Below the pieces are notes generated by a model. That model saw nothing but the letters and a program-made list of their open reading frames with translations. It made no database searches and was not told the origin of the DNA. The position numbers and the translations under genes were made by a program. This document shows, one piece after another, positions 2,415-24,336 of a DNA stretch of 24,507 bases. The stretch is from the IMG/VR virus record IMGVR_UViG_3300027973_001702, positions 1 to 24,507 of that record; one strand, written 5' to 3'. Within the stretch, counting starts at the first letter, position 1. Each line of letters opens with the position of its first letter. The DNA comes from a virus.

Positions 2415-3108
2415 TTATTTCCGCCTTTCTATGCACCATGTTTCCTTTTAAAAAATCTTTAAAATCTTTTTTTGGATCATTGTAATCTAAGTTAAATCTT
2501 TCAGCATTTTTATCAAAGTCTTTATCATCTCTCACTGAATGATACAACCGATAGCAGTTTCCTGGAGCACGCAACATTGGTCTGTCATACAAAATTTTAT
2601 ATGCTTTATCAAAAGCTGTATCTTCGTATCCCCAACCAATAAAGTTTTCGTTCCAACCATTCATTTTCCAAAACATCTCACTAGTCATAGCCCAACCACT
2701 ACCAATATGCTCTAGCGAAAGAGTCGCATGTTGTTTTTCTATTTCATGTAGCTGCATGTCCCCCCCATCTAACGCTGCACAAGTAGTCATGTGCGGCTCC
2801 ACCGACTTTGTGTATAGGTAGGAGATAACATCTTCTTCTGATACAACCTTAAGGGCGTCTATTACAGAGTCCCGCTCGAAGACAGTATCAGCGTCCATAA
2901 CAATTAAAAACTTATAGCCATCTTCTATGGCTTTTATGCATCCACGATTTCTAGCTTCAGATACGTTAAATCTCTCTCCGACGCTATCAGAAAAGTATAT
3001 TTTAAAGTCGGAGAATGCAGGACCGTTATATCTCCAAGCAAGCTGAAATGAAAATTCTCGTTCGGGAGTACTCCTCCATGGAACAACAATAGCGGCGTCC
3101 ATTCTCAT
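2404..3108 (-). CDS. Family 2-like glycosyltransferase with galactosyltransferase C-terminal motif
   Basis: 234 residues. The N terminus (AAIVVPWRSTPERE) is the first strand of a GT2 fold. D72-A-D74 in LIVMDADTVF is the DxD metal/nucleotide-sugar site. GWNENFIGWGYEDTAFD (151-167) matches the C-terminal motif of the Glyco_transf_7C/GT2 galactosyltransferase group, where the W-G-x-E-D acid contacts the acceptor. The ATG at 3108 overlaps the TGA of the upstream small membrane protein by 4 bp. The donor sugar cannot be told from sequence. With the next two genes it forms a three-gene glycan-modification run. Confidence 0.85.
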   Translation of the reverse strand: MRMDAAIVVPWRSTPEREFSFQLAWRYNGPAFSDFKIYFSDSVGERFNVSEARNRGCIKAIEDGYKFLIVMDADTVFERDSVIDALKVVSEEDVISYLYTKSVEPHMTTCAALDGGDMQLHEIEKQHATLSLEHIGSGWAMTSEMFWKMNGWNENFIGWGYEDTAFDKAYKILYDRPMLRAPGNCYRLYHSVRDDKDFDKNAERFNLDYNDPKKDFKDFLKGNMVHRKAEISEK

Positions 3109-4463: not shown

Positions 4464-4865
4464 TTATCTCTCATAGTCATCCTCGATGCGGGTTATATCT
4501 TCTTCTTCGTACCAACCATACATTAGTTCTACGATTCTTGCAACCCTATTTGAAGTGTTCTCTATGCGGTGCTTTTCCATAAAAGGAACGTACACCGTCT
4601 CTCCAACCTCTGTCTCCCAGGTTCTATCTCCGACGGTTACAACAATACCGGCGTCTAAGATATACCATCTCTCAGAACGCTTTTCATGCGTCTGCAAAGA
4701 CAGCCTGCTTTTAGGGTTTATTGTTAAGACTTTTACACATGCAGGGGGGTCAACATCTTCTAAAACACTGTAGCCACCCCAAGGGCGCTCCCAGTCTACG
4801 GGAGCTGCTTTTGTGCAGCAAACACATTCAGGACCCTCGTAGTATGGGTTTTTAAAATCTCTCAT
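4464..4865 (-). CDS. Mannose-6-phosphate isomerase type II-like cupin
   Basis: 133 residues. The string WERPWGGYSVLED, then LSLQTHEKRSERWYIL, VGDRTWETEVGE, VYVPFMEKHRIEN and a tail ending in EEDITRIEDDYER is the C-terminal cupin of the GDP-mannose pyrophosphorylase/phosphomannose isomerase family (PF01050), with the metal-binding histidine in QTHEKRSE and a second in KHRIEN. It would interconvert fructose-6-phosphate and mannose-6-phosphate, or a similar sugar phosphate. The nucleotidyltransferase half of the bifunctional enzyme is absent. I use the ATG at 4865, preceded by AGAAGGAAAC, and not the GTG at 4910, because the latter lies inside a tRNA gene. It pairs logically with the phosphomannomutase-like protein at 9910-10656. 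Confidence 0.88.
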   Translation of the reverse strand: MRDFKNPYYEGPECVCCTKAAPVDWERPWGGYSVLEDVDPPACVKVLTINPKSRLSLQTHEKRSERWYILDAGIVVTVGDRTWETEVGETVYVPFMEKHRIENTSNRVARIVELMYGWYEEEDITRIEDDYER

Positions 4866-4885
4866 GTTTCCTTCTAACTCCCCTG

Positions 4886-4957
4886 AGCCCCAGGTGAATT
4901 CCGAGATCACAACCTACGCTTTACAAGAGCGTTGCTCTACCGTTGAGCTACTGGGGC
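4886..4957 (-). tRNA. tRNA-Thr (anticodon TGT)
   Basis: A 72-nt cloverleaf reads on the minus strand. The 7-bp acceptor stem GCCCCAG/CTGGGGC is perfect, the D stem is GCTC/GAGC, and the anticodon stem is ACGCT/AGCGT with loop CTTGTAA, giving anticodon TGT (Thr, ACA codons). The T arm is odd: the stem GTGAT/TTCAC has a T-T mismatch and the loop CTCGGAA departs from the usual TTCRANN, losing T54 and A58. CCA is not encoded. The 3' end is only 20 bp from the cupin ATG, so both are probably cut from one transcript. ACA is frequent in the Thr-rich fibre gene. Confidence 0.85.
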
Positions 4958-6008: not shown

Positions 6009-6437
6009 TTATTCTTTCCATTCCTGCAGTATCCAGCTTGAACTATTCTTCTTGTCTTCGCCTCCGACACCGAACACGAACTCAAGTCTCTCTGACTGTA
6101 CCACCATCTCTGGTATGTTGTCAAGCGTTCTATCCCCACCGTTAGCAAAAATCACTTTATCACCAGGATTTGTAGCTAAAATCCACTTAATTGCGTCTAT
6201 TGCAGTGCCATCTTCGTCATCAAACTCAATAACGGCGTCTACGCTCTTCAGCTCCTCTAGGACGGCTCGACGCTCGTCTGCGGGCATAAAGGGCTTACCT
6301 TTTTTGCGTTTTAGCCATTCGTCGGAGTTTATTCCAACAATAAGGGCGTCTCCTAATTTGCGTGCAGCTTTAAAGTACTCAATATGCCCCGAGTGCAACG
6401 GATCAAATCCACCAGTTACAACTACTATTGTTCGCAA
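6009..6437 (-). CDS. HxGH nucleotidyltransferase (cytidylyltransferase/heptose-1-P adenylyltransferase-like)
   Basis: About 142 residues from a TTG at 6437. The frame opens further upstream but the fold begins at RTIVVVTGGFDPLHSGH. GGFDPLHSGH (9-18) is the HxGH nucleotide-binding site; GINSDEWLKRKKGKPFM and the ADERRAVLEEL segment match RfaE/HldE-C and glycerol-3-phosphate cytidylyltransferases. It would activate a sugar-phosphate or polyol-phosphate to a nucleotide-sugar. The C-terminal ISSTxxR-type motif is replaced by KKNSSSWILQEW. The TTG start overlaps the small membrane protein gene by 13 bp. In context it belongs with the mannose-phosphate enzymes and glycosyltransferases. Confidence 0.82.
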   Translation of the reverse strand: MRTIVVVTGGFDPLHSGHIEYFKAARKLGDALIVGINSDEWLKRKKGKPFMPADERRAVLEELKSVDAVIEFDDEDGTAIDAIKWILATNPGDKVIFANGGDRTLDNIPEMVVQSERLEFVFGVGGEDKKNSSSWILQEWKE

Positions 6438-6592
6438 TTTAGAATCGCCTGCTCTTCCGTTTGGTATCTGTCCCAACAATTATCTATCTTCCCAACCCCA
6501 GCAACAAAGAATCCATAGATTAAAGCCCCCAACATAGCAACAATAATTCCCGCAAAGATTAGAATTTCTTTCTTGGTTACATTTTCATTCAT
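6425..6592 (-). CDS. Small single-pass membrane protein
   Basis: 55 residues. The N terminus MNENVTKKE is charged, residues about 10-33 form one hydrophobic helix (ILIFAGIIVAMLGALIYGFF), and the C-terminal tail KIDNCWDRYQTEEQAILNC is polar with two cysteines. The ATG makes an ATGA overlap with the HNH gene stop. The N-CWD-x-Y-x-T-E-x-x-A-I-x-x-C tail looks conserved from memory of similar small phage proteins, but I know no function. The two cysteines could form a disulfide if the tail is outside the membrane. Confidence 0.7.
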   Translation of the reverse strand: MNENVTKKEILIFAGIIVAMLGALIYGFFVAGVGKIDNCWDRYQTEEQAILNCEQ

Positions 6593-9126: not shown

Positions 9127-9409
9127 AGTCGCGAGCTACGCAGGTCTTGAACCTGCCCTGTCAGAGAACCCGAAGGTACTTCTTACGAAGCCTGACAAGC
9201 ATCCCCATTTAGCTCCACTGGAACCCTATGACCCATCATCCAGCGATATGCGACTTCCCAAATAGTTCGTTTGCAACCGAGATCTATTCAGTACATCAAT
9301 GGCAACTAACATTTCTGCCAGCCCCATGGTCTCTCCATTATTCATAGTTGAGAGGGTGCCCCATATGCAAATGGAACCTAGACCGCTTTACGCTTCTCTG
9401 TCTAGAGCG
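9127..9409 (-). ncRNA. Unexplained structured RNA region, tRNA-like at its 3' end
   Basis: The 283 bp between tRNA-Asn and the terminator are dense with hairpins on the minus strand. Stem 9210-9215/9133-9138 (GAGCTA/TAGCTC) encloses a three-way junction made of 9192-9198/9158-9164, a CTTC-GTAA-GAAG hairpin (9179-9190) and an ACC-TTCG-GGT hairpin (9168-9177). It also encloses GCAGG-TTCAAGA-CCTGC, a perfect tRNA T arm (9140-9156). A 7-bp hairpin (9216-9245) abuts the outer stem. Further stems lie at 9300-9320, 9330-9355 and 9378-9405. No D arm or anticodon arm can be fitted, so it is not a normal tRNA. Candidates include a GOLLD-like phage RNA, an intron remnant or a tRNA mimic. Confidence 0.5.
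9226..9345 (-). CDS. Possible 39-residue peptide inside the structured region
   Basis: ATG at 9345 to TAG at 9226 gives a peptide beginning MNNGETMGLAEMLVAIDVLN and ending LDDGS. Amino-acid composition is reasonable, but no ribosome site lies at the right distance and the frame crosses several RNA hairpins. An open frame of this length can arise by chance. Kept as a low-confidence alternative to the noncoding reading. Confidence 0.2.
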   Translation of the reverse strand: MNNGETMGLAEMLVAIDVLNRSRLQTNYLGSRISLDDGS

Positions 9410-9482
9410 CTGACCACTTTGGAGTCGAACCAAAAACCTATCGGTTAACAGCCGATTGCTCTGCCTATTGAGCTAGTGATCA
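9410..9482 (-). tRNA. tRNA-Asn (anticodon GTT)
   Basis: A 73-nt cloverleaf: acceptor TGATCAC/GTGGTCA (7 bp with one T-G pair), D stem GCTC/GAGC, anticodon stem ATCGG/CCGAT with loop CTGTTAA giving GTT, T arm TTTGG-TTCGACT-CCAAA and discriminator G. CCA is not encoded. It lies 71 bp downstream of the tmRNA within one operon and reads AAC codons, which are frequent in the structural genes here. Confidence 0.95.
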
Positions 9483-9551: not shown

Positions 9552-9553
9552 AG

Positions 9554-9869
9554 TGGAGATGCGGGGAATCGAACCCCGGTCCAGTTAAGGATCTATTGTT
9601 CTTCTACAAGCTTAGGTTTTACCAACCACGGTACTACGAAGGCGGGATCTTAAGGTCTCCTGCTGCAACCTTTTGGTTTGTCCTATTTATTTAAAGCCTG
9701 GATGCCCACATAGGACTTGTGCTTTTCCAGGGGTTCTAACTACCTATCAGGCAGCTAGAGCGAATGCAGAACGTGATTCAGCATTTATTTTGTTTAGCGG
9801 TTTTACGAGACTCCGCCATCTCGGCTTGCTTCACCAACTTCAGAATAACTGTCGAAACCAGTCATCCCC
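9554..9869 (-). ncRNA. ssrA: Transfer-messenger RNA (tmRNA)
   Basis: The RNA starts GGGGATGACTGGTTTCGACA, a classic tmRNA 5' end, and finishes with the T arm CGGGG-TTCGATT-CCCCG and CATCTCC, which pairs with GGGGATG to rebuild the alanyl acceptor stem. The tag frame follows AAATAAAT at 9782-9747: GCT GAA TCA CGT TCT GCA TTC GCT CTA GCT GCC, then TGA TAG, encoding AESRSAFALAA. The ALAA ending is the protease degron, and the resume context resembles that of mycobacterial tmRNA. At about 316 nt it is shorter than typical cellular tmRNA. It releases stalled ribosomes and tags unfinished proteins. CCA is not encoded. Confidence 0.93.
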
Positions 9870-9909: not shown

Positions 9910-10656
9910 CTAGACCTTTTTTAGCAAATCTAATATTACTTCCAGAGTTTGCCAAGGGGTTTTCACTTCTATACATCTAACTCCAGTCTGTAGCACCGGA
10001 AAGTCATTACCGTCTTTATCAAATCTATCACCAACAAAAACTACTTCCTTAGTATTAAGAGAGTTTAGTCTGATAAGTTCTAATATCGCAAAACTTTTGT
10101 CAATACCTTTTTTTGTTATATCTACGCTAGTGGACCCACCGGCTCTAACTTCAAACTCAGGCAAGTATCCAGAAATCTTGGATTTAAGTTTTTTCTTCTT
10201 ATCACCATTTTTATCCCAGGAATCCTTAAGATACCCGGGAGCTCTTTGGCCTAACCCAGAAAAGGTAACCTGAGCACCTCTATTGTCAATGGTTTTGCCA
10301 TAGCTTTCTGTAGGCCAGTAACCAAGTAAGATAGCCGAAGCTTTTACAACTCTCTTAATCTTTTTAATCTCACGTCTTTTTAGTTTTAGTGAGTAAATAG
10401 GCTTCCAACTAAATAACCCAAACTTTAGATACGCGGCTCCACTAGTTGGCATGATAGATAAGTTTTTTAGATTAGCCCCCTTAGGCAGCCTTTTCACCAC
10501 CTGAGAAATAACCTGCTTTTTGGTGCCACCAGTAACTACGCATACCTGAGCTTTAGATAGAAGCTCGCTCAATAAGTATGCCATCTCCAAAGAGATAAAA
10601 CCCTTGCTAGGTGCAAGGGTTCCATCCAAATCAAAAGCTACAAGTTTTACAGACAT
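9910..10656 (-). CDS. Phosphomannomutase-like HAD-IIB phosphotransferase
   Basis: 248 residues, the length of eukaryotic-type phosphomannomutases. D9-x-D11-G-T (FDLDGTLAPS) is HAD motif I. VVTGGT is motif II. The cap holds DNRGAQVTFSGLGQRAP (124-140), like the PMM substrate loop. GGSTSVDITKKGIDK (173-187) supplies the motif III lysine, and GDRFDKDGND (209-218) is the motif IV metal site. It probably interconverts mannose-6-phosphate and mannose-1-phosphate or dephosphorylates a related sugar phosphate. The ATG overlaps the previous stop by one base, with AAGGA upstream. It matches the mannose-6-phosphate-isomerase cupin at 4464-4865. Confidence 0.85.
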   Translation of the reverse strand: MSVKLVAFDLDGTLAPSKGFISLEMAYLLSELLSKAQVCVVTGGTKKQVISQVVKRLPKGANLKNLSIMPTSGAAYLKFGLFSWKPIYSLKLKRREIKKIKRVVKASAILLGYWPTESYGKTIDNRGAQVTFSGLGQRAPGYLKDSWDKNGDKKKKLKSKISGYLPEFEVRAGGSTSVDITKKGIDKSFAILELIRLNSLNTKEVVFVGDRFDKDGNDFPVLQTGVRCIEVKTPWQTLEVILDLLKKV

Positions 10657-12451: not shown

Positions 12452-12927
12452 TCCGGGAACCTCTGGTTATCGTTCTCAAAGAATACAAGCCCAAGGGAGT
12501 CTCCAGCTTTGAGTGTTACTTGGTCAATTCCAGTTGACGCCCAGCCCCAAGGCAGAGCACCATCTTTTACTAAGACGGCCCAGTAAGCAAAGGCAGCTGG
12601 CATCTCGGCACACGTCTCGACATAGTTCTCGTGGTCTTTGATGCCGATCGGGCTAGTAGCACTAGGCAGCGAGTTTACACGACATACAATCTGTGAGCCA
12701 TATTTGCCAGTGCCTTCTATTGCTAGCCCAGCGTCAGCAAGAAGGTCAAGACCATTTGCTTTACCAGTTACAGGGATGCATTTGCTTGAGGTTGATTTAG
12801 AGTCTAAGACTCCGTAGTCCACTAGAACAGTCACGCATTCCTTGTTTGGCTGGCTGGCTACGACAAAGCCGATGCCTCCAACAACTAGGCCAGCGGTAAT
12901 TAAGATACTTAGATTTTTATTTTTCAC
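12448..12927 (-). CDS. Exported DUF4430/transcobalamin-C-like protein
   Basis: 159 residues from a GTG at 12927, chosen because GGAGGAGACC precedes it; it overlaps the adenosyltransferase by 11 bp. Residues 1-28 are a signal peptide or anchor (KNKNLSILITAGLVVGGIGF). The mature part shows VTVLVDYG, NGLDLLADAG, a conserved cysteine (IVCRVN) and YWAVLVKDGALPWGWA followed by VTLKAGDSLGLVF, the pattern of DUF4430, a family related to the C-terminal cobalamin-binding domain of transcobalamin. Four further cysteines could form disulfides outside the membrane. Lying between a cobalamin adenosyltransferase and a B12-dependent reductase, it may capture or hand over cobalamin; that role is inference. 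Confidence 0.65.
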   Translation of the reverse strand: MKNKNLSILITAGLVVGGIGFVVASQPNKECVTVLVDYGVLDSKSTSSKCIPVTGKANGLDLLADAGLAIEGTGKYGSQIVCRVNSLPSATSPIGIKDHENYVETCAEMPAAFAYWAVLVKDGALPWGWASTGIDQVTLKAGDSLGLVFFENDNQRFPE

Positions 12928-13492
12928 GGTCTCCTCCAGGAATCCATAAGACATCGCCAATCTCGCGATTAGCGTGTCTAGATAGTACGAATAGTAGGTC
13001 AGATAGTCGGTTGAGATATTTGGCGGTAGTGATGTTTACTCCCTCACCAAATGAGTGAATAGCATTCCAAGTCTGACGTTCCGCTCTGCGAACCACGGTT
13101 CTGGCTACATGAAGCTGAGCTGCCAACGGAGTCCCACTAGGAAGCACAAAAGTTCTAAGAGTGCTTAGAGGTTCATTGTACTGGTCGATTAGATTCTCTA
13201 GGCGAGTAACCTGCTCTTCCGTAACTCTTAGCGGTGGGTACTTAGGGTCGTCAATAACTGGTGTGCAGAGGTCTGCGCCAACATCGAACATATCGTTCTG
13301 AATGCGGAGCAGAACCTCTTTCACATCAGCATCAATCTCCATAGACAAGGCAACTCCAATGCTGGAGTTTGCCTCGTCCACGGTAGAGAACGCTTCAAGT
13401 CTGGCATCATTCTTAGAAGTACGACTCCCGTCTCCGAGAGAAGTAGTTCCTTGATCGCCAGTCTTCGTGTAGATGGTACTTAGTACAACCAT
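12917..13492 (-). CDS. PduO-type ATP:cob(I)alamin adenosyltransferase
   Basis: 191 residues, the standard PduO length. IYTKTGDQGTTSLGDGSR (7-24) is the ATP-binding N-terminal loop. AFSTVDEANSSIGVA, FVLPSGTPLAAQLHVARTVV with RRAER, and KYLNRLSDLLFVLSRHAN are the helix-bundle motifs that hold ATP and cob(I)alamin. It makes adenosylcobalamin, the cofactor of class II ribonucleotide reductase. Its ATG follows the nrdJ stop directly with no gap, so the two are almost certainly made together. Phage-encoded copies are unusual and indicate that cofactor supply limits infection. Confidence 0.95.
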   Translation of the reverse strand: MVVLSTIYTKTGDQGTTSLGDGSRTSKNDARLEAFSTVDEANSSIGVALSMEIDADVKEVLLRIQNDMFDVGADLCTPVIDDPKYPPLRVTEEQVTRLENLIDQYNEPLSTLRTFVLPSGTPLAAQLHVARTVVRRAERQTWNAIHSFGEGVNITTAKYLNRLSDLLFVLSRHANREIGDVLWIPGGDREK

Positions 13493-15526
13493 TTACTTGT
13501 TGTTCTCCACAATCAACTTGATTTCACAAGCGTCTGTGGTGCAGTAGGCATCGCCAATTGCATCGATAGCCATACCAGCGTAAACACCGCTGAATGAGAT
13601 AGGGAACAACTTACCAGCCGCATCCTCGTACTCTTCCTTAGTAATTTGGGTGTATGGCATCTGAGGGTATGTGAAGTTACCTGAAGGCAAGAACGATACA
13701 GTTTTTAGCTGACCGTCATACATGTGAAGTACAGACTCAACGTGCTTGGCTTCTGTCTCAGGGTCAAACGAGATAGTCACCGATACAGAGTTGTCTGACC
13801 AGTAACGCTGAGCAGTTGCAGCAAGTGCCATCTTTTCAAAGATAGTTACATCGCGTTCTGCACGCTTTGCACCAGACTTGATTGGGAAGAACACCACTGA
13901 AGTAGTCTCTGGAGATTCAGAGGCTGGCTCAATTGTGTAGTTAGCCATCTTGAATAGTGGCAACATCGGGTCGTTGTTTCCAAAGCGAATTGCACGCATG
14001 AAGTATTCGCCACCTGGAGTCCAGTGAACACCTGGAGACTCACCAGCAAGAATCGATACAGTGCCTGATGGCTTGACGGTCGTGGTCTTGATTGACTCAC
14101 GAATACCTAACCACTCCGAGTATGTAACGTCATACTTCTTGACAACTGCATAACCCTCGTCCATCCAAGTACGGAGAGCAGGGATACCATTGTTATCTGC
14201 AAAGTTAGCAATACCAGACATCGAGGTTCCGATACGACGGTTACGCTGCATGATTGCGTTGGTCTCTTCCCAGTGGGTAGGAAGAAGAGTCACGGTTTTT
14301 GCGTAGAGGTAAGCAAACTTCAAAGTGCGAAGATAGTCTTCCTTGCTTTCGTGACGGTTTAGGTAAGTCTCAACAAGAGTACACATTTCGTAGCTCTCCA
14401 AGGACTGCTCTGCACAAGGGTTGTAGCCCATGATGCGGTGGTCCTTGTTGTTGATTGGATCGCCTAGACGACCATAAGCCTTTGACACGTCTTCCCAGAT
14501 AACTCCAGGCTCACCGTTAAGGATGATTCCATCAATAATCTTTGAGAAGTCGGTACCAACGTTGACCATGACCGAGTTGTTTGACATCCAACCCCATCCT
14601 GGGATTTCTGGATCATATGAGTTACGCTCAGGAAACTTTTCAACATTCTTTAAGTTCAAGAAGTTGTCATCATCAATACGACCAATCAAAAGCTCAGCTG
14701 AACGACGAACGTTTCCGGAAACTACACAACGGCCGATAAGGTTTCCGATGTCCGCAATGTCAACAGTGGTGACTAGCTGACCCTTGCGTCCTAAAAAGAT
14801 TTGAGAGATCTTGTTGTGGAGCGCAATCAACGGTTCTGGGCCAGAAGCTGTGCCACCAAAAGTTGCAATAGGTGCACCATAAGGACGAATCTGGTCGTAG
14901 TTGAAGTCCCAGCGTGGCTGGTCTGGCTTTAGGAATGAATTGATTAGTGCAACAGTAGATTCCTGCCATCCCTCACGAGTGTCTGGGATTACATATTCCT
15001 GAGGCTGACCTGGTTCATAGATTTCAAAGTTTTTGTCAGCTCCTTTGTCGTCAAACCCAACGCCGACACCGAGCATGGATGCTTCCATAAGGAAAGCAAA
15101 TGGCTTACCTGGGTTTGCCTTGGTCATTTCCAAAGTAGACACAAAAGCACAGTTCTGCAAAGCAGCCGAGTTCTTCTGAACGTTTACGATATTGGTTCCC
15201 ATGACCCAGAGTCCACGGCCCGGAGGAGACCACTTTAGGTTGAATAGAGAGTCAAAAAACTCTTTAGCCGAGGCAGCAGCCTTAGCGTCTGACCATGGCA
15301 AGCGGTTCTGTTTTGCATGGTCCTTCTGGATTGAATAGGTTCCGTTGGTAACGCGCTCACAAACCTCCGACCAGGTTTCTTTGGTTCCATCTTCTTTTTT
15401 GCGTGAGTACGTGCGCAAGAAAGTTATCTCGCCTACAGAGTTGCCAGCGGCATCTTTGTAACCGAAAGGGGATTCTTTTTGCTTGTACTCCGCTACGAAC
15501 TCTTCATTTAGTTTAAATGAGAACAT
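13493..15526 (-). CDS. nrdJ: Adenosylcobalamin-dependent (class II) ribonucleoside-triphosphate reductase
   Basis: 677 residues, in the range of monomeric RTPR enzymes. PPGRGLWVMGT (101-111), NCAFVST with C126, GRCVVSGNVRRSAE (265-278) and the finger-loop motif NPCAEQSLESYEMC (369-382), with C371 as the probable thiyl-radical cysteine and E373 as partner, are all present. KPSGTVSILAGESPGVHW (around 490) is the substrate-phosphate region. The C-terminal shuttle pair C662-x4-C667 (CTTDAC) receives electrons from a redoxin such as NrdH. The enzyme converts NTPs to dNTPs using AdoCbl. The ATG has no ribosome site; TATAAC ends 5 bases upstream, suggesting a leaderless transcript. No intein is seen. 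Confidence 0.97.
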   Translation of the reverse strand: MFSFKLNEEFVAEYKQKESPFGYKDAAGNSVGEITFLRTYSRKKEDGTKETWSEVCERVTNGTYSIQKDHAKQNRLPWSDAKAAASAKEFFDSLFNLKWSPPGRGLWVMGTNIVNVQKNSAALQNCAFVSTLEMTKANPGKPFAFLMEASMLGVGVGFDDKGADKNFEIYEPGQPQEYVIPDTREGWQESTVALINSFLKPDQPRWDFNYDQIRPYGAPIATFGGTASGPEPLIALHNKISQIFLGRKGQLVTTVDIADIGNLIGRCVVSGNVRRSAELLIGRIDDDNFLNLKNVEKFPERNSYDPEIPGWGWMSNNSVMVNVGTDFSKIIDGIILNGEPGVIWEDVSKAYGRLGDPINNKDHRIMGYNPCAEQSLESYEMCTLVETYLNRHESKEDYLRTLKFAYLYAKTVTLLPTHWEETNAIMQRNRRIGTSMSGIANFADNNGIPALRTWMDEGYAVVKKYDVTYSEWLGIRESIKTTTVKPSGTVSILAGESPGVHWTPGGEYFMRAIRFGNNDPMLPLFKMANYTIEPASESPETTSVVFFPIKSGAKRAERDVTIFEKMALAATAQRYWSDNSVSVTISFDPETEAKHVESVLHMYDGQLKTVSFLPSGNFTYPQMPYTQITKEEYEDAAGKLFPISFSGVYAGMAIDAIGDAYCTTDACEIKLIVENNK

Positions 15527-15952: not shown

Positions 15953-16318
15953 ATGAGCTGCGTTGCTGGAACCTATAACATTACTTGTAATCAAGGTGCT
16001 ACATTTAGTCGCACTATTACGTGGACTGACTCTGCCCGTAATCCGTACAACATCAGCACCTACACTGCACGAATGCATGTTCGCGAAACAGTAAACGCCG
16101 CTTCAACAATAGTAGAGCTAACAACAGCAAATGGACGAATTACTTTAGGGGCTAACGTTGCCACACAAGGCCAGGTGAGCCTGCTAATTGCTGCAAATAC
16201 TACAGCTAACCTAACCGCAGGACTCTATGTATATGACTTAGAGCTAGTTTCAAGCACGGGAGTAGTGGACAGAATTCTTGAAGGAAACTTCAAAGTTAGT
16301 GCCGAGGTAACTCGTTAA
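15953..16318 (+). CDS. Putative virion/baseplate-associated beta protein
   Basis: 121 residues, rich in Thr, Ala, Asn and beta-branched residues. It opens with CNQGATFSRTITWTD and continues with TYTARMHVRE, GRITLGANVATQGQVSLLI and LYVYDLELVSSTGVVDRILE followed by GNFKVSAEVTR. The alternating pattern suggests an Ig-like beta sandwich such as the N-terminal domain of baseplate upper proteins (BppU). Its stop overlaps the fibre gene start by one base (TAATG), so it likely forms the adaptor or chaperone for the fibre. The start has AAGGA 7 bases upstream. Confidence 0.7.
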   Translation: MSCVAGTYNITCNQGATFSRTITWTDSARNPYNISTYTARMHVRETVNAASTIVELTTANGRITLGANVATQGQVSLLIAANTTANLTAGLYVYDLELVSSTGVVDRILEGNFKVSAEVTR

Positions 16319-19300
16319 TGGCAACCTACTTCGATGACGAACAAAATAAAGTTATCGTCAATCCAAGGGACGTTAACAAGGTTATCGTTCAAGAGCAGCC
16401 TAACCATGTTGAAATTAGTATTGGCGGACCTCAAGGTATTCAAGGTGTTCAGGGTGTTCAGGGTGTTCAGGGCACAACTGGAATTCAGGGAAACACAGGT
16501 ATCCAAGGTAGCACAGGTGCTCAGGGTACCCAAGGTACAACTGGTATTCAAGGTACTGCAGGCTTCATTGGAGCTAATGGTACTCAGGGCACGCAGGGCA
16601 TTCAAGGTGTCCAAGGTCGTCAGGGTACCCAGGGTATAACAGGTATTCAAGGATTTGGATACGCCCAGCTACAAGGACCTTTAGGTTTTCAAGGTACAAC
16701 CGGCCCTCAAGGGACTCAGGGCGTTCAAGGCACTGAAGGGCTTCAAGGCGAAGTAGGTGCGACCGGTAATACGGGCGAGGGGGGTATTCAAGGCTTCACT
16801 GGCACTCAAGGCGCAACAGGTACTCAAGGTTTGCAGGGTCGTCAAGGTACTACAGGGTTACAGGGTCAAATTGGTACTCAAGGACTGCAGGGTCGTCAAG
16901 GTACTACAGGGACGCAAGGCCTGACAGGTGTCCAAGGAATCACAGGCGCAGGTACTCAAGGCACTCAAGGTGCAACAGGAGTACAAGGTACCCAAGGAAC
17001 CGTTGGCACTCAAGGTCTTCAGGGGCTAAAGGGAGACATTGGAGATACAGGCATACAAGGAACCACGGGTGCATCTGGAGATAGTTCAAGTCACTACCAC
17101 TACAACGCAAGAACAAATACAACAAGTGGTGACCCAACAACAAACCAACTCGGTTGGAATAACGCAACTCAAATAAACTCTACTGCTTTGCGAGTTAACC
17201 ACTTAGACGCTGACTCACAAGACAACAGCATTTTTCTTCATCTGATTAACCAGTATGACAATCTTATAGTCCAAGACAAAAACAATGCGGAAAATTTTCA
17301 AACTTGGGAAGTGTCGGGAACACCAACACTAAACGCAACTTGGGATGAGTTTCCAGTAACTTTAGTTAATTCAGCAGGTACAGGCACAACAAACTTTGCT
17401 AGTAATCACTCTTTACTTCTTATCATCATTTCCGTAGGAAATGTTGGTCCACAAGGTATTCAAGGTGTACAAGGCCTAACAGGCGCACAAGGAGCCCAAG
17501 GTACTACTGGTACGCAGGGTTTGACTGGCACGCAAGGCATCCAAGGAACCATTGGAACTCAAGGAATTCGAGGTTTACTAGGTCTTCAAGGTGCAACTGG
17601 TGCGCAAGGAACAACTGGTACCCAGGGTGAGTTAGGTACTCAAGGTACAACTGGAGCACAAGGCCTAATTGGTATTCAAGGTACTCAAGGTACTCTAGGT
17701 GTCCAAGGTATTCAAGGTGTACAAGGCACAACCTTCACAGGCTATGACTATGAAATTCACGTTAGTCAAGTAGATGGAAATGACACTACTGGTAATGGTG
17801 ATTTGCTTACTCCAGTTGCTTCTATTACTAAGGCATTGACTTTAGTAGATTCACAGCGTAAAACCATTATTGTTCACCCAGGGACTTACACTGAAAGCCC
17901 TTCAATAACTACTCAGTACACGACCATAACTGGACCTGGTCTTATTGGTGGAAACATCGTAATCTCTGGAACTGTAAGTACAAGTGTTGGCTGTACTATC
18001 TCGGGTTTAAAAATAACAAACCTTACTATCACTACGCCCACTGGTACAGGGAATGTAAACATCTTGAACTGTGAAGTTTCTGGAACTTTTACAAAGAGCA
18101 GTAATGCTGACTACACCGTTCTTCGTTTGTGTGACCTTGCTGCCGCAAGCATCACTGGGTCTGGTTTAGTCGCTATCTTTGGTGGAAATCCAAACTTCAT
18201 AACCGTCAACAACGCTAGTGCCAATGTAATTGTAAAAAGTGCTGTCACCGTTGCCCCTGTTCTAACTGCTGGAACTCTAAGCCTTGTAGATTCTGTAGTC
18301 GTTGCTGCTGTGACCAATGCCGTGACATCGGCTGCCTCAAGTGTGATTACTTTAGCAAACTGTCAACTACTGACTTCCGCACTAAACAATGTCGCACCAG
18401 TCGTTTTGAGCGGCTTCTACTCAATCCTCAACTGCGTATACGATAAGCCAAATTCAACCTTAGTTGCTTCGTCTGGTACTGGTGGCACAACAAACGCCAT
18501 TGATTACTTCCAGTACATCAACGCAGATAAGTTCATCACCCAAGGTGGTACTTCTGCCCAGTATGTAAAGGGTGACGGCTCGCTTGACTCTATAAGCCCA
18601 GTTGGAGCCCAAGGAACAACTGGTATTCAAGGTACTCAAGGTACTATAGGTCCTCAGGGATTAACCGGATCTCAGGGAACCACAGGAACCACGGGAGACA
18701 CAGGCTTACAAGGCACAACTGGATCTCAGGGAATTACCGGGGCTAATGGCATAGGATATGACAACTTAACTTCATCATCATCAGTGGTTATGGGGACAAC
18801 GGCAAAAACATTTTCAATGTCTTCTACTGGAGCACTTGCTCTAGGAACAAGAGTTCGTATAAGCCCAGTTTCTACGCCAACCTATTACATGGATGGCCCT
18901 ATCACCGCAATTACTGCTAACAGCAGTATCACAGTTACCGTAGATGTATTTAGTGGAAGCGGAACGTTCACAAGCTGGACAGTATCTGTAGTTGGGCAGC
19001 GTGGTGCCTCAGGCACTCAAGGTACAACTGGTACACAGGGTCTTACTGGGACAGGTACTCAAGGCACTCAAGGCACAACTGGCACGCAAGGTGGAACTGG
19101 GGCAGGTACTCAAGGTACAACTGGAACTCAGGGAACAACTGGAACAACAGGACTACAAGGTACAACTGGAACCACTGGAACTCAGGGAATAACTGGTACA
19201 CAAGGAACCACAGGTCTTCAAGGTTTAACTGGAACAGGAACTCAGGGTGTTCAAGGAATTAGCGGGGCTGGTGGAGTTTCACTTTCAGCAAATAATACTT

Positions 19301-20313
19301 TTACTGCTACTCAAACTTTTGCTACCACAAGCGGTAACACTGCCCCAGTGGTTATTAATCAAGGGACAATAACTACACCTCTTACAGCAGTATACACTTA
19401 CTATGATAAAGGCAATGGCTACTACTATTTTTCAATAGGAATGACATTACCATCTGGTCTTACAAACAATAATGGCTACACTGTCTACCTGACTGGCTCA
19501 AATTCACCAGTTGGACTTAGAACTCCATTTAGTGCATCTCTCTATTATGATGCTGTCAACTATGGTGGTTATTATTTCTATATTTACTATCCTGGGTACC
19601 CAAACTCCTTTAGCGTAACTGGTGTAACGATAGTTGCCTACTCATATGTAAACTTACTGGACATTAAAAATGCTGCTGGAACTACCTTAGCCAATGTGTC
19701 TTACGCAGGTGCTCTCACTGTCGCTGGGATTACTTCAACGGGTGCAATCACTGGTACTACAATCAGTGGTACATTAGTCACTGCTAATGCACTAAATCTA
19801 ACTACAAGCATTACCAGTGCCAATCCAAACACAAACAAAGTAGCCCATATGCCTATGGGTGCTGATGTCGCAGTAGCAGCAAATACTTGGACTGAGGTTG
19901 GTTTTTTTACTGGTAGCAACATTACTATCAATGGAACCAGTGCTTTGGGAGATGCTTCTTGGATAGTTAGTGGAAACATAATTATTCAAACACAGGCAAA
20001 TAATACTGCGGCTATAGTTACTGTTAAACTTTGGTCAAAAGATACTAATAATGTATCTTTGGGCGGACTAGCCTCGTCAGAAGTAACTATTCCAGCAATC
20101 TCTGGGGTTAAGGGAGTTGCAACAATACCAATTAACGCATTGCTACGCTCTAGAGCAAGTTTTGCTAGTGCTATTTTAGTATTTGATGTTTATAGCACCG
20201 CAGCAGTTACTGTAAAACGCTTTGTTCCTGACAATGCAACGGGGGATTCCTCGTCGCTTAGTACTTCTAGTGGAGACGGAACTAGTTTTACATTCTTAAA
20301 AGTGAAGGGATAA
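16318..20313 (+). CDS. Collagen-like tail fibre protein
   Basis: 1331 residues. Four collagen-type G-x-y blocks lie at about 37-254, 375-472, 763-812 and 893-987, dominated by GIQ, GTQ, GVQ and GTT triplets, with Gln/Thr instead of Pro in the Y position. Between blocks 2 and 3 (about 475-755) sits a probable right-handed beta-helix of the pectate-lyase/DUF1565 type (DGNDTTGNGDLLTPVASITK, then TIIVHPGTYTES). Residues 988-1331 form a Tyr/Gly-rich and then beta-rich tip, likely the receptor-binding part. Phage collagen repeats trimerise into rods. The N terminus (YFDDEQNKVIVNPRDVNKV) probably attaches to the virion. The DNA repeats are prone to length change by recombination. Confidence 0.9.
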   Translation: MATYFDDEQNKVIVNPRDVNKVIVQEQPNHVEISIGGPQGIQGVQGVQGVQGTTGIQGNTGIQGSTGAQGTQGTTGIQGTAGFIGANGTQGTQGIQGVQGRQGTQGITGIQGFGYAQLQGPLGFQGTTGPQGTQGVQGTEGLQGEVGATGNTGEGGIQGFTGTQGATGTQGLQGRQGTTGLQGQIGTQGLQGRQGTTGTQGLTGVQGITGAGTQGTQGATGVQGTQGTVGTQGLQGLKGDIGDTGIQGTTGASGDSSSHYHYNARTNTTSGDPTTNQLGWNNATQINSTALRVNHLDADSQDNSIFLHLINQYDNLIVQDKNNAENFQTWEVSGTPTLNATWDEFPVTLVNSAGTGTTNFASNHSLLLIIISVGNVGPQGIQGVQGLTGAQGAQGTTGTQGLTGTQGIQGTIGTQGIRGLLGLQGATGAQGTTGTQGELGTQGTTGAQGLIGIQGTQGTLGVQGIQGVQGTTFTGYDYEIHVSQVDGNDTTGNGDLLTPVASITKALTLVDSQRKTIIVHPGTYTESPSITTQYTTITGPGLIGGNIVISGTVSTSVGCTISGLKITNLTITTPTGTGNVNILNCEVSGTFTKSSNADYTVLRLCDLAAASITGSGLVAIFGGNPNFITVNNASANVIVKSAVTVAPVLTAGTLSLVDSVVVAAVTNAVTSAASSVITLANCQLLTSALNNVAPVVLSGFYSILNCVYDKPNSTLVASSGTGGTTNAIDYFQYINADKFITQGGTSAQYVKGDGSLDSISPVGAQGTTGIQGTQGTIGPQGLTGSQGTTGTTGDTGLQGTTGSQGITGANGIGYDNLTSSSSVVMGTTAKTFSMSSTGALALGTRVRISPVSTPTYYMDGPITAITANSSITVTVDVFSGSGTFTSWTVSVVGQRGASGTQGTTGTQGLTGTGTQGTQGTTGTQGGTGAGTQGTTGTQGTTGTTGLQGTTGTTGTQGITGTQGTTGLQGLTGTGTQGVQGISGAGGVSLSANNTFTATQTFATTSGNTAPVVINQGTITTPLTAVYTYYDKGNGYYYFSIGMTLPSGLTNNNGYTVYLTGSNSPVGLRTPFSASLYYDAVNYGGYYFYIYYPGYPNSFSVTGVTIVAYSYVNLLDIKNAAGTTLANVSYAGALTVAGITSTGAITGTTISGTLVTANALNLTTSITSANPNTNKVAHMPMGADVAVAANTWTEVGFFTGSNITINGTSALGDASWIVSGNIIIQTQANNTAAIVTVKLWSKDTNNVSLGGLASSEVTIPAISGVKGVATIPINALLRSRASFASAILVFDVYSTAAVTVKRFVPDNATGDSSSLSTSSGDGTSFTFLKVKG

Positions 20314-20316
20314 CAA

Positions 20317-21147
20317 ATGAAAACACTCTCGTATTTACACATTCCAAAATGCGGAGGAAAAGGATTTAAAAACCTTATTCCAATTCTAGAAGACAACGGT
20401 TTAAAAGTTTTTTCTAATATCACTCAAAACTTTGATGGCTACAATAAGTACGCCTTTGTTCAAACTCACTACGGCTCACACCCAAGTGATAACTACCCAG
20501 AAATCGAGACTGCTTGTGTCTTTAGAGACCCATTGGACAGAATGGTGAGTCAGTTTGCTTGGGCAATGATGACTGATGCTTGGTCAGTTTATTTTGAAGA
20601 ATATACAAAAGATGATATTGGGAACCTATTTAAGTATTTTCTTTTTACGGATGAAAAGTTTGTAAATAATAATAACTTGCAAACAAAATTTGTTTGTAAT
20701 GGGGTTGAAGAGGCTATTTTTTATGTAAAACACATTAATAAACTACTTCCTGAAGATGGCTCGATTAAGTTTGAAACCCAGCCTTCTCACGGTAGTTTTT
20801 GGAAAGAGTGGATGATTGCAAACGATAAGACCTCAATTGAATACGCAAAATCTCAAGTAGACAAGATGACTATTATCGACACCTTGGAAAACCATGACCG
20901 ATTTACTACCAATGTTTGCAACTGGTTCAAAGAAAACTACGACCTGGATATTGAAGAAGAGTTTAGAGCGTCTCTGGTCAACGAAAACCCTACCTTCAAC
21001 TACAGCATATTCACTGATAACCAAGGCAACGAGTGGACCACTGCTAAACTGAAGGCACTTTTAACTGAAGAAGAGATTGCAGGAGTGTACGAAAACAACT
21101 CGCTAGACTTAGAACTCTACAACTATGTGAAAGACAAAGTGCAGTGA
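20317..21147 (+). CDS. PAPS-dependent sulfotransferase
   Basis: 276 residues. HIPKCGGKGF (8-17) is the 5'-phosphosulfate-binding loop of the Sulfotransfer_2/heparan-sulfate sulfotransferase type, with K11 the likely catalytic lysine. FRDPLDRMVSQF (69-80) is the 3'-phosphate-binding motif (R70, S78). It would transfer sulfate from PAPS to a hydroxyl on a glycan or protein. The ATG has AAGGGATAACAA upstream, 3 bp after the fibre stop, and its TGA overlaps the next start by 4 bp. No signal peptide, so it works in the cytoplasm. The fibre, a host polysaccharide precursor or a small metabolite are possible targets. Confidence 0.85.
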   Translation: MKTLSYLHIPKCGGKGFKNLIPILEDNGLKVFSNITQNFDGYNKYAFVQTHYGSHPSDNYPEIETACVFRDPLDRMVSQFAWAMMTDAWSVYFEEYTKDDIGNLFKYFLFTDEKFVNNNNLQTKFVCNGVEEAIFYVKHINKLLPEDGSIKFETQPSHGSFWKEWMIANDKTSIEYAKSQVDKMTIIDTLENHDRFTTNVCNWFKENYDLDIEEEFRASLVNENPTFNYSIFTDNQGNEWTTAKLKALLTEEEIAGVYENNSLDLELYNYVKDKVQ

Positions 21148-21890
21148 TTATTCAAATCCTAGGACTACCAGGCTCAGGTAAAACAACCTTGGCAGAAGCC
21201 CTAAAGGAGCGTCTAAACGCTATTCACCTAAACGCAGACGAGGTTCGCTCCACCCTAAACTCTGACCTAGGCTTTAGTGAGAAAGATAGAGCAGAAAACG
21301 CTCGTCGCCTCGCTGAGATGGCTCGCTTGCTATCTAAGCAAGGTCACACTGTAATTGTTGACTTTATCTGCCCAACTAAGGCAACTCGTAAAGCGTTCGG
21401 CACCCCAGACATCAAGATTGTGATGAACACTATTGCCTCTAGTCGTTTTTCCGATACAGACGCTATGTGGATTCCAGTCATTGACGCTGACCACACTTTT
21501 TACGAGTGGAAGTCAGACAAAGAAATGGCTGACGAAGTAATTAAAAAGTTTAGCCTTTTCGACTGGTCTGCCCCAACAACTCTGATGCTAGGCCGCTACC
21601 AGCCTTGGCACGAGGGTCATCAAGCTCTAAAAGAGGAAGCACATAACCGAACCGAGCAAGTCTTAGTCGGTATCCGAAACACTTACGGCACTTCCGAGAA
21701 AGACCCTCTCACTTTTCATCAAGTAGTCGAGTTCATTCCAGAGCAACCAGATACCCTAAAGATGCGTCTACCAAACATTACAAACATTGTTTACGGGCGT
21801 GATGTCGGCTACCTAATCGAGAAGGTAGAACTGAGCCCAGAACTTCAGGCTATCTCAGCAACTAAAAAGCGTGCCGAACTGGGGCTATAG
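21144..21890 (+). CDS. APS kinase fused to an HxGH nucleotidyltransferase
   Basis: 248 residues. The N-terminal half is CysC-like: GLPGSGKTT (7-15) is the P-loop, NADEVRSTLNSDLGFSEKDR and ENARRLAEMARLL match the APS-binding part, and VIVDFICP corresponds to the FISP motif. The C-terminal half has GRYQPWHEGH (150-159) and ISATKKR (237-243), the two motifs of HxGH adenylyl/cytidylyltransferases. The kinase half would make PAPS from APS; the second half could make APS from ATP and sulfate or serve another nucleotide transfer. GTG start with a GTGA overlap to the sulfotransferase, strongly suggesting donor synthesis for that enzyme. Confidence 0.87.
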   Translation: MIIQILGLPGSGKTTLAEALKERLNAIHLNADEVRSTLNSDLGFSEKDRAENARRLAEMARLLSKQGHTVIVDFICPTKATRKAFGTPDIKIVMNTIASSRFSDTDAMWIPVIDADHTFYEWKSDKEMADEVIKKFSLFDWSAPTTLMLGRYQPWHEGHQALKEEAHNRTEQVLVGIRNTYGTSEKDPLTFHQVVEFIPEQPDTLKMRLPNITNIVYGRDVGYLIEKVELSPELQAISATKKRAELGL

Positions 21891-22084
21891 TGGCTAGTTC
21901 TAGAAAAATCTCTATTACTAAAGCAATAACATATAGGGTTTGGCAAAGCATAAACACTTTTTTAATTGCTTTATTCATCACAGGCAAGTTTGAGACTGCT
22001 GCTCAGATAGTCAGTCTAGAAGTGGTTGTTAAGGTTGTTGTGTACTACTGGCACGAACGCATATGGGTAAAGTTTAATAAATAA
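21890..22084 (+). CDS. DUF2061 membrane protein
   Basis: 64 residues, GTG start overlapping the APS kinase stop by one base. KAITYRVWQSINTFLIALFI followed by TGKFETAAQIVSLEVVVKVV and the ending YYWHERIW are the DUF2061 signature: a first helix after R-x-x, a second helix, then Y-x-x-H-E-R-x-W. The function of DUF2061 is unknown. Coupling to sulfation genes suggests a role in sulfate-related transport or regulation, but this is inferred from position only. Confidence 0.82.
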   Translation: MASSRKISITKAITYRVWQSINTFLIALFITGKFETAAQIVSLEVVVKVVVYYWHERIWVKFNK

Positions 22085-22090
22085 AAGTTA

Positions 22091-22759
22091 CTAAATAGCC
22101 CAAAGCATTCCAACATCCGATGTAGGGCGTAGGTTTGCTTTTTTCCAACCAACTTGCTCCCACTCTAGGGCAAGTTTTTCTCTCAGCTTTTTTAGATCAT
22201 TTTTAGATTTAATTGGCGACCATTCAATATCAGGTTCCTGCAGGTGGTGCTCAATAAATTGCATTCTAAACTTGGTGTAACCAATTGACTTTAAATACAA
22301 AAGTTGCTCTTCGTGCTGATCCAAAGTTTCTTGTGTCCACTCAAAAGCAAGCTTTCCGTAGTTTTTAGTCATACCCCTAAAGACAGCCCACTCCGCCCCC
22401 TCAACATCAATCTTGATAAGATCCGGCATCCCATATTGCTCGACTAACCAATCCATGGTGCATGTGTTCACGTAGATAGTTCTAAACTCTTTACCGTTGT
22501 AAGGCATAGACGAGTCAGTCAACCAAGACTTTTCCATAGTGGACAGCCCATCTTCAACGCATTCGTAAAACTCTATTCTGTCGCCAGTAGTTTCGGACAC
22601 AGCCAGTCTTAGCGGAACCACATTTGGGTCATAAATAAAATTACGTACAAGCTCGGCAAACACTTTAGGAGCTGGTTCTAGTGCAATAACTTTGTACCCT
22701 AAGTTTACGCCAGCTACAGTTGCGTCCCCACGGTTAGCCCCGATATCAAACATCAACAT
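22091..22759 (-). CDS. FkbM-family methyltransferase
   Basis: 222 residues. MFDIGANRGDATVAGVNLGY (3-22) is SAM-binding motif I, VIALEPAPKVF motif II, RLAVSETTGDRIEFYE a further core strand and LIKIDVEGAEW the FkbM motif with the E-G-A-E loop. These enzymes O-methylate sugars or small molecules. The start overlaps the TPR gene by 14 bp. The stop faces the DUF2061 gene with only 6 bp between and no terminator is visible. It likely caps or decorates the glycan built by neighbouring genes. Confidence 0.9.
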   Translation of the reverse strand: MLMFDIGANRGDATVAGVNLGYKVIALEPAPKVFAELVRNFIYDPNVVPLRLAVSETTGDRIEFYECVEDGLSTMEKSWLTDSSMPYNGKEFRTIYVNTCTMDWLVEQYGMPDLIKIDVEGAEWAVFRGMTKNYGKLAFEWTQETLDQHEEQLLYLKSIGYTKFRMQFIEHHLQEPDIEWSPIKSKNDLKKLREKLALEWEQVGWKKANLRPTSDVGMLWAI

Positions 22760-23330
22760 CTGGAACCAGCCTATCTAAGTTTTCATTTGCAGCATCTTTA
22801 TATAGCTTTGGGGAACGGTGGTCGGTTGCTATGTTAGTTAAAATCTCGATGCTATCTTCCTTACGTCCAACCCACCATGCGGCTATAGCTATTTGAAAGT
22901 TTAACGAGTACCAAGAATAATAACCAACGTCTGACGGTAAGCCCATAAACTGTCGATTGTACATAGTGCCCATAACTGCATAAGCGTAGCTTTCTGGCCA
23001 TAGACCAGACTTTTCATAAAATCTTGACAAAAGAAAATATGCTTCAGGGCGGTCAGGTAAAAAAGCTACTGCCTGCAACAAGACATTGCTAACTGTAAGG
23101 TCGCGGTTCTTCTGCCCCTCGATGCAAATAGAAATTTTAAGCAGAGCGCAGTACGCAGTGAGTGGGTCAGTTTTGTACCCATACTCTGCGGCTCGAAGAT
23201 AAAACCCAACAGCAGATGCAGTCTGCCCCAATTTTTCATACTCAAGGGCAATGTTGAAGTTCTTTTCCGGATTTAGCGAATCTGTAGATGCGTCAACAAT
23301 CAGTTGTTCAATGATTTCATTAGAACTCAT
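22746..23330 (-). CDS. TPR-repeat protein
   Basis: 194 residues, mostly helical. Repeats resembling TPRs occur at about 24-50 (NIALEYEKLGQTASAVGFYL), 93-120 (PEAYFLLSRFYEKSGLWPES) and 145-170 (NFQIAIAAWWVGRKEDSIEI). TPR proteins scaffold protein partners. In aquatic phages such genes often sit with glycosyltransferases, as here. The ATG overlaps the stop of the beta-propeller gene by 11 bp. No enzymatic motif. Confidence 0.75.
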   Translation of the reverse strand: MSSNEIIEQLIVDASTDSLNPEKNFNIALEYEKLGQTASAVGFYLRAAEYGYKTDPLTAYCALLKISICIEGQKNRDLTVSNVLLQAVAFLPDRPEAYFLLSRFYEKSGLWPESYAYAVMGTMYNRQFMGLPSDVGYYSWYSLNFQIAIAAWWVGRKEDSIEILTNIATDHRSPKLYKDAANENLDRLVPDVDV

Positions 23331-24336
23331 AACGCAACGCCTCCATAATCAAATTTTCAACAACAATCTTAGGGGTTCTTAAAACAAACGCAGCGTTATC
23401 TTGAAAACCAAAACTAATCAGAAGATCATTCTCATACTTTGCAGCACCAGCTACAAACTCAATGCGAGCTTCTAAGAACGTGAACGGTTCTGGAGATAGC
23501 CCAATAAGATTAAACTGCTCGTCCCAAACAACTAGGCGATGGCGATAGATTCCATCTTTTTGGTCCAGATAGTTTTTAAAAAGATCTACCTCGTGCGTTA
23601 TAGCAATGTAGACATTGCCCCATCGCACCACTTGGGAACTACCCCGCTGGTCTTTTGGTGGAATTAGTCCAGGGGTTAGGGATACCTGCTCACAGCGGGC
23701 TGGTTCGTCTGGCCAAGTCCTCACAACTTCAGTTGGAGAAGTCCACTTCACAAAGTGAAAAGGCTTGTCTACTATCGGCATCCAGTTTTTTTCGCAGTAA
23801 GAGTCATTAAGACCAGGAGCAGGAATGCGCAATCGAGATACCTCTTTGATTTCCCAGGTATCCCAGTCAATCTCCAACTTGCTGATCTCCATGCGCCCCT
23901 GACCATCCGGGGTTACATCGCGACGAACACCGATGTTGTAGTAGTCACCACCCCACTGGACCAGTCGGCAGTCTTCTTGACCAGTGAACTCCCACAGCGG
24001 CTCTATGTCCAGCTTCGATGTATCAACAGCGCCGTAGCCAACCATAGACAGGTTAGAGTCCAACTTGCAGATATAGTTAGTTGTGCGAAGAGCCTGATCT
24101 TGCTCGGGGTGTAGATAAGAAAGCGGACCCCAGCGACTAATAAATCGTTGATTGTTCTCCGAGTGATACAAAGTGTAGTTGACGTGACGGAGGTTTACAA
24201 GAATCTCGTTTTTAGAGTTGACAAAAACAGACGGGTTCATAAGCCCAGTACCGGAAGTTAATCCGTTAGAGATAACCAAAGGGGCAAGTTTGCCACCATT
24301 AGCCACAGATTTTTGAACTAAATTACTTGATGTCAT
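23320..24336 (-). CDS. Beta-propeller glycoside hydrolase/phosphorylase-like protein (GH130/GH43-like)
   Basis: 338 residues. NPSVFVNSKNEILVNLRHVN, then LWEFTGQEDCRLVQWGGDYY, YCEKNWMP, FHFVKWTSPTEVV, RGSSQVVRWGNVYIAITHEV and a final LLISFGFQDNAAFVL fit a five-bladed propeller with the E-D-x-R-L core seen in GH130-type mannoside phosphorylases and related proteins. Acidic residues in QEDCRL and CEKNWMP are candidate catalytic or sugar-binding positions. It may process or bind a glycan made by the cluster. The ATG follows the preceding gene by 2 bp. The exact family is uncertain. Confidence 0.65.
   Translation of the reverse strand: MTSSNLVQKSVANGGKLAPLVISNGLTSGTGLMNPSVFVNSKNEILVNLRHVNYTLYHSENNQRFISRWGPLSYLHPEQDQALRTTNYICKLDSNLSMVGYGAVDTSKLDIEPLWEFTGQEDCRLVQWGGDYYNIGVRRDVTPDGQGRMEISKLEIDWDTWEIKEVSRLRIPAPGLNDSYCEKNWMPIVDKPFHFVKWTSPTEVVRTWPDEPARCEQVSLTPGLIPPKDQRGSSQVVRWGNVYIAITHEVDLFKNYLDQKDGIYRHRLVVWDEQFNLIGLSPEPFTFLEARIEFVAGAAKYENDLLISFGFQDNAAFVLRTPKIVVENLIMEALRYEF

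Follow-up and report, generated by a model that had tools for sequence, protein, structure and literature searches.

Gene order of a cassette downstream of a tail-fibre gene

Directly 3' of its tail-fibre gene, a 24.5 kb virus record of a freshwater phage (referred to here as the window, i.e. the whole stretch of DNA analysed) carries three genes originally predicted to encode a sulfotransferase (ST), a PAPS-making fusion protein and a DUF2061 protein, which raises the question of whether the phage produces its own activated sulfate donor and, if so, onto what the sulfate is transferred. The fibre gene (16318-20313, plus strand) encodes a collagen-type protein of 1331 aa with matches to PF01391 (E=3e-57) and to the tail fiber family phrog_5073 (1.3e-94). 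Its stop codon is separated by 3 bases from the start of the ST gene (20317-21147, plus strand; 276 aa), which is followed by the fusion gene (21144-21890, plus strand; 248 aa) and by a gene for a small predicted membrane protein of 64 aa (21890-22084, plus strand). The ST and fusion genes overlap by 4 bases (GTGA) and the fusion and DUF2061 genes by 1 base; the open reading frames, coordinates and motifs of the three overlapping, coupled genes were all found as predicted.

Two contigs from other samples, L002 and L167, exhibit the same gene order with 100% protein identity, so that this order is no assembly accident, and an assembly artefact was rejected. No description of a fibre-ST-fusion-DUF2061 unit was found in the open-licence papers searched. 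The most fitting reading of the cassette is a sulfation module of the phage in which known enzyme kinds occur in a new arrangement.

The sulfotransferase

The ST was identified as a PAPS-type, carbohydrate-like sulfotransferase by its match to PF03567 (E=4.9e-6; 27.3 bits, over the curated cut-off of 22) and by its AlphaFold2 model (pLDDT 83). Both PAPS-binding motifs of the original prediction were recovered, with sequence HIPKCGGKGF at aa 8-17 and FRDPLDRMVSQF at aa 69-80. The 5'-phosphosulfate-binding motif HIPKCGG (aa 8-14; 20338-20358, plus strand) is conserved in 18 phage sulfotransferases, with G14 invariant, while R70 and S78 of the 3'-phosphate-binding motif RDPLDRMVS (aa 70-78; 20524-20550, plus strand) are invariant in the same number. 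The consensus in the aligned phage sulfotransferases (n=18) reads HIPKxGG and RDPxxRxxS, and the general PAPS motif patterns (5'PSB PK.G; 3'PSB R..8..S) were both present in the ST.

The predicted structure has a sulfotransferase fold, with PDB entries 4ndz, 3f5f and 5t05 together with SULTs as its best matches; the top match was heparan sulfate 2-O-sulfotransferase with bound PAP (E=3.8e-5), followed by 6-O-sulfotransferase and then cytosolic SULTs. The original assignment is supported by motifs and predicted fold. Because the model best matches heparan sulfate 2-O-sulfotransferase, a carbohydrate is the somewhat favoured type of acceptor. The ST resembles the PF03567 carbohydrate sulfotransferases in its PAPS motifs and predicted fold, but identity in the structural match to heparan sulfate 2-O-sulfotransferase is only ~14%, and the ST is phage-encoded beside a fibre. 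No solved relative was found when its sequence was searched against the PDB, and close relatives were confined to L002-L004 and L167, with none in phage isolates.

An APS-kinase-like half joined to a small nucleotidyltransferase

The fusion protein matches phrog_10255, annotated 'kinase', over its full length (E=1.2e-58), and its AlphaFold2 model reached a pLDDT of 89.8. The matched part of its N-terminal half (aa 2-84; 21147-21395, plus strand) corresponds to PF01583 (4.3e-21) and carries the P-loop GLPGSGK as well as NADEVR and LGFSEKDR. When a profile built from 28 relatives was compared with the PDB, the top 24 sequences hit by this half were all of APS-kinase type, comprising APS kinases, PAPS synthetases and ATP-sulfurylase/APS-kinase fusions matched via their kinase domain, and a Foldseek search with the model returned almost only APS kinases, including the APS-bound entry 3uie and human PAPSS1. 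The N-terminal half is thus APS-kinase-like in sequence and predicted fold.

The fusion shares with the APS kinase CysC this fold and the P-loop, DxVR and LGFxxxDR motifs, all three of which were found. It differs in that the APS-kinase match ends at aa 84, short of a full-length CysC, in that a short stretch takes the place of the kinase's C-terminal lid region, and in that the NCBIfam apsK equivalog cut-off was missed (78.3 bits against 138.7). The protein is therefore not an orthodox CysC, although it may work like one, and phosphorylation of APS is the likely reaction of this half.

The C-terminal half (aa 145-248; 21576-21887, plus strand) is an HxGH nucleotidyltransferase (NTase) domain of ~105 aa with a match to PF01467 (3.3e-4) and the segments GRYQPWHEGH, YGRDVGY and ISATKKR. 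HEGH lies at aa 156-159 and ISATKKR at aa 237-243, in agreement with the predicted nucleotidyltransferase half, and GRYQPWHEGH, YGRxVGY and ISATxxR are near-invariant in 28 relatives. In a profile search of this half against the PDB, the nearest solved relatives were NMN adenylyltransferases (NMNATs), with no ATP sulfurylase among the matches at E<=1; a Pfam match to ATP sulfurylase (Sat, PF01747) was likewise not obtained. The NMNAT motifs HxGH and ISxTxxR are present, while the fusion scored below the curated NMNAT cut-offs, with 24.4 bits where one demands 127 and 20.4 bits where the other demands 181.2.

The claim of a PAPS-making fusion is consequently supported for the APS-kinase-like N-terminal half but not, at the level of recognisable domains, for the C-terminal half, which is nearest to NMNAT. 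Bifunctional PAPS synthetases (animal PAPSS; bacterial Sat-CysC and CysNC) also join a kinase-like half to a nucleotidyltransferase, and human PAPSS1 has the same N-to-C order, with 196-220 columns aligned by Foldseek. In contrast to these enzymes, the fusion measures only 248 aa, with a shortened kinase half and a C-terminal half of ~105 aa; when compared with their domain composition, the kinase-like half was present and the sulfurylase half was not recognisable. As a tentative possibility, the ~105-aa HxGH domain represents an undescribed minimal ATP sulfurylase unlike Sat and CysDN, which would make the fusion an unusually small bifunctional PAPS synthase. If the C-terminal half is an ATP sulfurylase, phages could make PAPS in hosts unable to activate sulfate.

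The third gene, DUF2061, accompanies the fusion

The product of the third gene was assigned to DUF2061 (PF09834, E=1e-16; 61.5 bits against a cut-off of 23.1), as predicted. In 127 of 160 phage loci, a DUF2061 gene follows downstream of the fusion at a distance of no more than 2.5 kb, compared with two of 160 control loci, both of which carry the fusion; fusion and DUF2061 form a conserved pair. In Gammaproteobacteria, DUF2061 was recovered in 5 of 75 genomes, in a scattered manner, and its context there was uninformative.

Sulfotransferases track the fusion across phages

Viral contigs contain at least 594 proteins related to the fusion. A Pfam sulfotransferase match (E<=0.01) was obtained in 27 of 49 fusion-carrying records, some of the matches in this census lying under curated cut-offs and the records being partly related and in many cases fragments. 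The PF13469 search covered only the fusion set, in which PF00685 and PF03567 by themselves already give the count of 27. Forty-nine records sharing the window's ribonucleotide reductase served as controls; two of these carried a sulfotransferase, one of which (G082) was also the sole control with a fusion, and its sulfotransferase matches lie within 2.5 kb of that fusion. Sulfotransferases thus occurred in 27/49 fusion records versus 1/48 fusion-free controls (Fisher p=2e-9).

In a local comparison, an ST was located within 8 kb in 62 of 160 fusion loci and in four of 160 control loci; the queries were STs taken from fusion loci, which makes this search more prone to bias than the Pfam census. 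Of the four ST-positive control loci, three carry the fusion themselves and one, L172, is part of the contig of L003, which bears the fusion; the Fisher value for the local comparison was calculated with these four omitted (62/160 versus 0/156). Following dereplication of the fusion at 80% identity, an ST was retained in 13 of 28 cases. In 40 of the 62 loci, the nearest ST is encoded by the gene before the fusion, two before it or two after it. Chance neighbourhood was rejected on the basis of both control sets, and the cassette is real, recurrent and well above chance. The predicted co-occurrence of donor synthesis and transfer genes in phages was in this respect borne out, as the ST tracks the fusion.

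The STs at fusion loci belong to several different, unrelated subtypes, as would follow from recruitment to a common source of the donor, and it is probable that the fusion supplies PAPS to phage sulfotransferases. In about half of the fusion records no ST was found, and the genomes of three cultured relatives (with a fusion ~38% identical) gave no PF00685 match. In two of the three the fusion is encoded near MazG-like genes, and in Bhz60 also near a NADAR gene. Given the missing PF00685 match, the fusion of these cultured phages would either work with sulfotransferases of the host or perform a further function. A separate arrangement was observed in L087 (2870-4570) and L090 (1357-3057), where the gene directly upstream of a distant fusion relative encodes 566 aa with a sulfotransferase match at the N terminus, the fusion relative of L087 being ~39% identical to the window's.

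Linkage to fibre genes and divergence among relatives

Fibre-like genes, defined as long and Gly/Ser/Thr-rich, were present within 4 kb in 14 of 48 ST-positive versus one of 72 ST-negative fusion loci, counting loci with enough flank and without dereplication; those at L108, L139 and L140 match tail-fibre families. The closest relatives of the window retain the order structural gene, ST, fusion and DUF2061. The predicted fibre linkage therefore stands for these relatives and as a frequent association, but it is not universal, as many loci with ST and fusion lie away from fibres. Such unlinked relatives, which the original prediction had named as evidence against it, were in this way encountered in part.

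Compared with L003 and L004, the window's fusion is 94-95% identical, its DUF2061 58-60% and its ST 36-38%, while the upstream fibre is essentially unrelated. Between L003 and L004, the corresponding values are 94% for the fusion, 84% for the ST and 49% for the upstream propeller-like protein. In this sample of three, the sequences give the picture of a donor enzyme that stays constant and a transferase that varies together with the fibre.

In five further loci (L010:4755-5606, L011:886-1731, L028:7157-7999, L107:1012-1836 and L113:5337-6161), the ST-like part is located behind an N-terminal extension, and the extended gene precedes the fusion in all five. The extension is of one kind in L010, L011 and L028, with a phrog_7759 match in L010, and in these three loci the gene directly follows a virion-type gene.

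A two-gene counterpart in SAR11

Adjacent overlapping genes correspond to the two halves of the fusion in over 40 SAR11 loci (L331-L374, for instance L358:6992-7773 and L345:6995-7776), and their products are ~50% identical to the phage protein. This kinase/NTase pair thus comprises the same two domains, yet its genes are separate and chromosomal, are situated in sulfur and C1 contexts, and were not found with DUF2061 beside them. Genes resembling dmdA and metF were observed near the pair in 38 loci. Genes resembling pqqC and aprM come after the pair in three loci, two of which also show aprB and aprA; in L358, aprA and aprB were assigned by NCBIfam.

Canonical ATP sulfurylase (PF01747) was detected in none of 24 SAR11 genomes, of which 21 contain the NTase. 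A proteome study reported AprBA as present in Pelagibacter ubique, and sat together with most of the cys pathway as lacking, and its table lists cysC in strains having aprA (PMC5069961). Because of the aprBA neighbours, the failure to find PF01747 in any of 24 genomes, the presence of the NTase in 21 of them and the reported lack of sat, the SAR11 NTase is a candidate for the missing ATP sulfurylase, even if its sequence is nearer to NMNAT. By extension from the SAR11 protein, the C-terminal half of the phage fusion is a candidate source of APS.

In three other SAR11 loci (L365:1606-2740, L375:6983-8195 and L377:6977-8489), the kinase gene occurs alone and is directly followed by an ST-like gene. 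Across these three genomes, the ST-like gene has one clear PF13469 match (L377), one weak PF00685 match and, in one case, a resemblance to STs by motif only.

Other genes in the window

Several minus-strand genes of the window are related to sugar or glycan metabolism, namely a galactosyltransferase-like gene (2404-3108), a mannose-6-phosphate isomerase C-terminal cupin (4464-4910), a heptose-phosphate adenylyltransferase-like gene (6009-6479), a HAD/phosphomannomutase-like gene (9910-10656) and an FkbM methyltransferase gene (22091-22759). These genes could supply the glycan that is sulfated.

A ribonucleotide-reductase-like gene, recognised by inspection, is located beside a PduO-type cob(I)alamin adenosyltransferase gene (TIGR00636, 8e-54) at 12917-15526 (minus strand), and the two possibly constitute a B12-dependent pair. 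A phage tmRNA gene (9553-9869, minus strand) with the predicted tag AESRSAFALAA adjoins a tRNA-Asn gene (9409-9482). At 22746-24336 (minus strand), a TPR-like gene is accompanied by a gene for a 338-aa protein, for which no family match was found; the two also occur together in other fusion phages (L014; L078:12540-13553). PADLOC analysis returned weak P-loop matches only.

Proposed function and alternative explanations

In the module proposed here, the fusion would supply the activated sulfate donor PAPS, its N-terminal half phosphorylating APS that is possibly supplied by the C-terminal half, and the ST would move sulfate from PAPS onto a carbohydrate. The acceptor would be a glycan that is part of the tail fibre or is recognised by it, and the module would in this way adjust adsorption; the donor enzyme would stay constant while the transferase varies with the fibre, and DUF2061 would act as a membrane partner of the donor enzyme. 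We assign slightly less than an even chance to a sulfation module of this kind, with PAPS from the fusion and an ST acting on a fibre-linked glycan, and the placement of the acceptor on the virion fibre, or on something bound by the fibre, is advanced a little more cautiously. Phage-encoded glycosyltransferases that act on virions present a comparable case: they too are transferases with a link to genes for virion structure, and they could alter the surface of the virion. Unlike these, the ST would transfer sulfate rather than sugar, and it travels with its own donor-synthesis enzyme.

Alternatively, the same enzymes may sulfate a glycan or lipid of the host surface and thereby mask the receptor from rival phages (superinfection exclusion). 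The similarity of the ST model to polysaccharide sulfotransferases, the many ST and fusion loci away from fibre genes, and the glycosyltransferase-like, FkbM methyltransferase and mannose-6-phosphate isomerase-like genes of the window are consistent with such a target, which is nevertheless considered somewhat unlikely, given that the ST of the window, like that of its closest relatives, directly follows structural genes and diverges with them, an arrangement that suits a virion role better.

The affinity of the C-terminal half to NMNAT also permits the fusion to be read as a kinase and NMNAT-like enzyme of NAD or other nucleotide metabolism, with an ST that uses host PAPS and a neighbourhood brought about by other causes. 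NadR likewise joins NMNAT and kinase domains, and the MazG-like and NADAR neighbours in cultured phages without a detected ST point in the same direction. However, the N-terminal half matches APS kinases and not nicotinamide riboside kinases, the ST association is tight across subtypes, and the aprBA and dmdA-like neighbours in SAR11 are sulfur-related. This explanation is thus decidedly unlikely, and NadR-like NAD salvage is disfavoured by the N-terminal half while being kept as a rival.

A small target inside the host, either a metabolite or a signalling molecule, in place of any surface structure is regarded as very unlikely: SULTs of the wider ST superfamily are among the weaker fold matches and several unrelated ST subtypes occur, but the best fold matches are polysaccharide sulfotransferases and virion fibre genes are frequently close.

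Finally, PAPS is the substrate of CysH, and cysC of freshwater phages has been read in terms of assimilatory sulfate reduction (PMC10914622), whereby a phage would raise PAPS for the host PAPS reductase and cysteine synthesis; since PF01507 (PAPS reductase CysH/CysD) was found in none of the 49 fusion records, though in all 14 control genomes, and sulfotransferases are present instead, this reading is, judged by phage gene content, extremely improbable for the phages analysed here. The freshwater genes are likewise APS-kinase-like and possibly the same genes, but in the records tested the fusion is linked to sulfotransferases and never to CysH.

Implications

The function of phage sulfotransferases has been stated to be unclear in a study of OM43 phages (PMC10580990). 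According to the census, PAPS in this large gene family more probably serves the transfer of sulfate, in many cases next to fibre genes of the virion. In SAR11, an ATP sulfurylase step has been reported missing, and the shared kinase/NTase pair offers a concrete candidate for it; if the C-terminal domain does have this activity, the pair would close the gap after AprBA where sat is reported absent. The co-occurrence of fusion and ST genes across hundreds of related phage contigs, far beyond expectation, suggests that sulfation of some component of the phage or host surface is carried out by many aquatic phages and, if this is right, sulfation would join glycosylation as a surface-modifying chemistry of phages.
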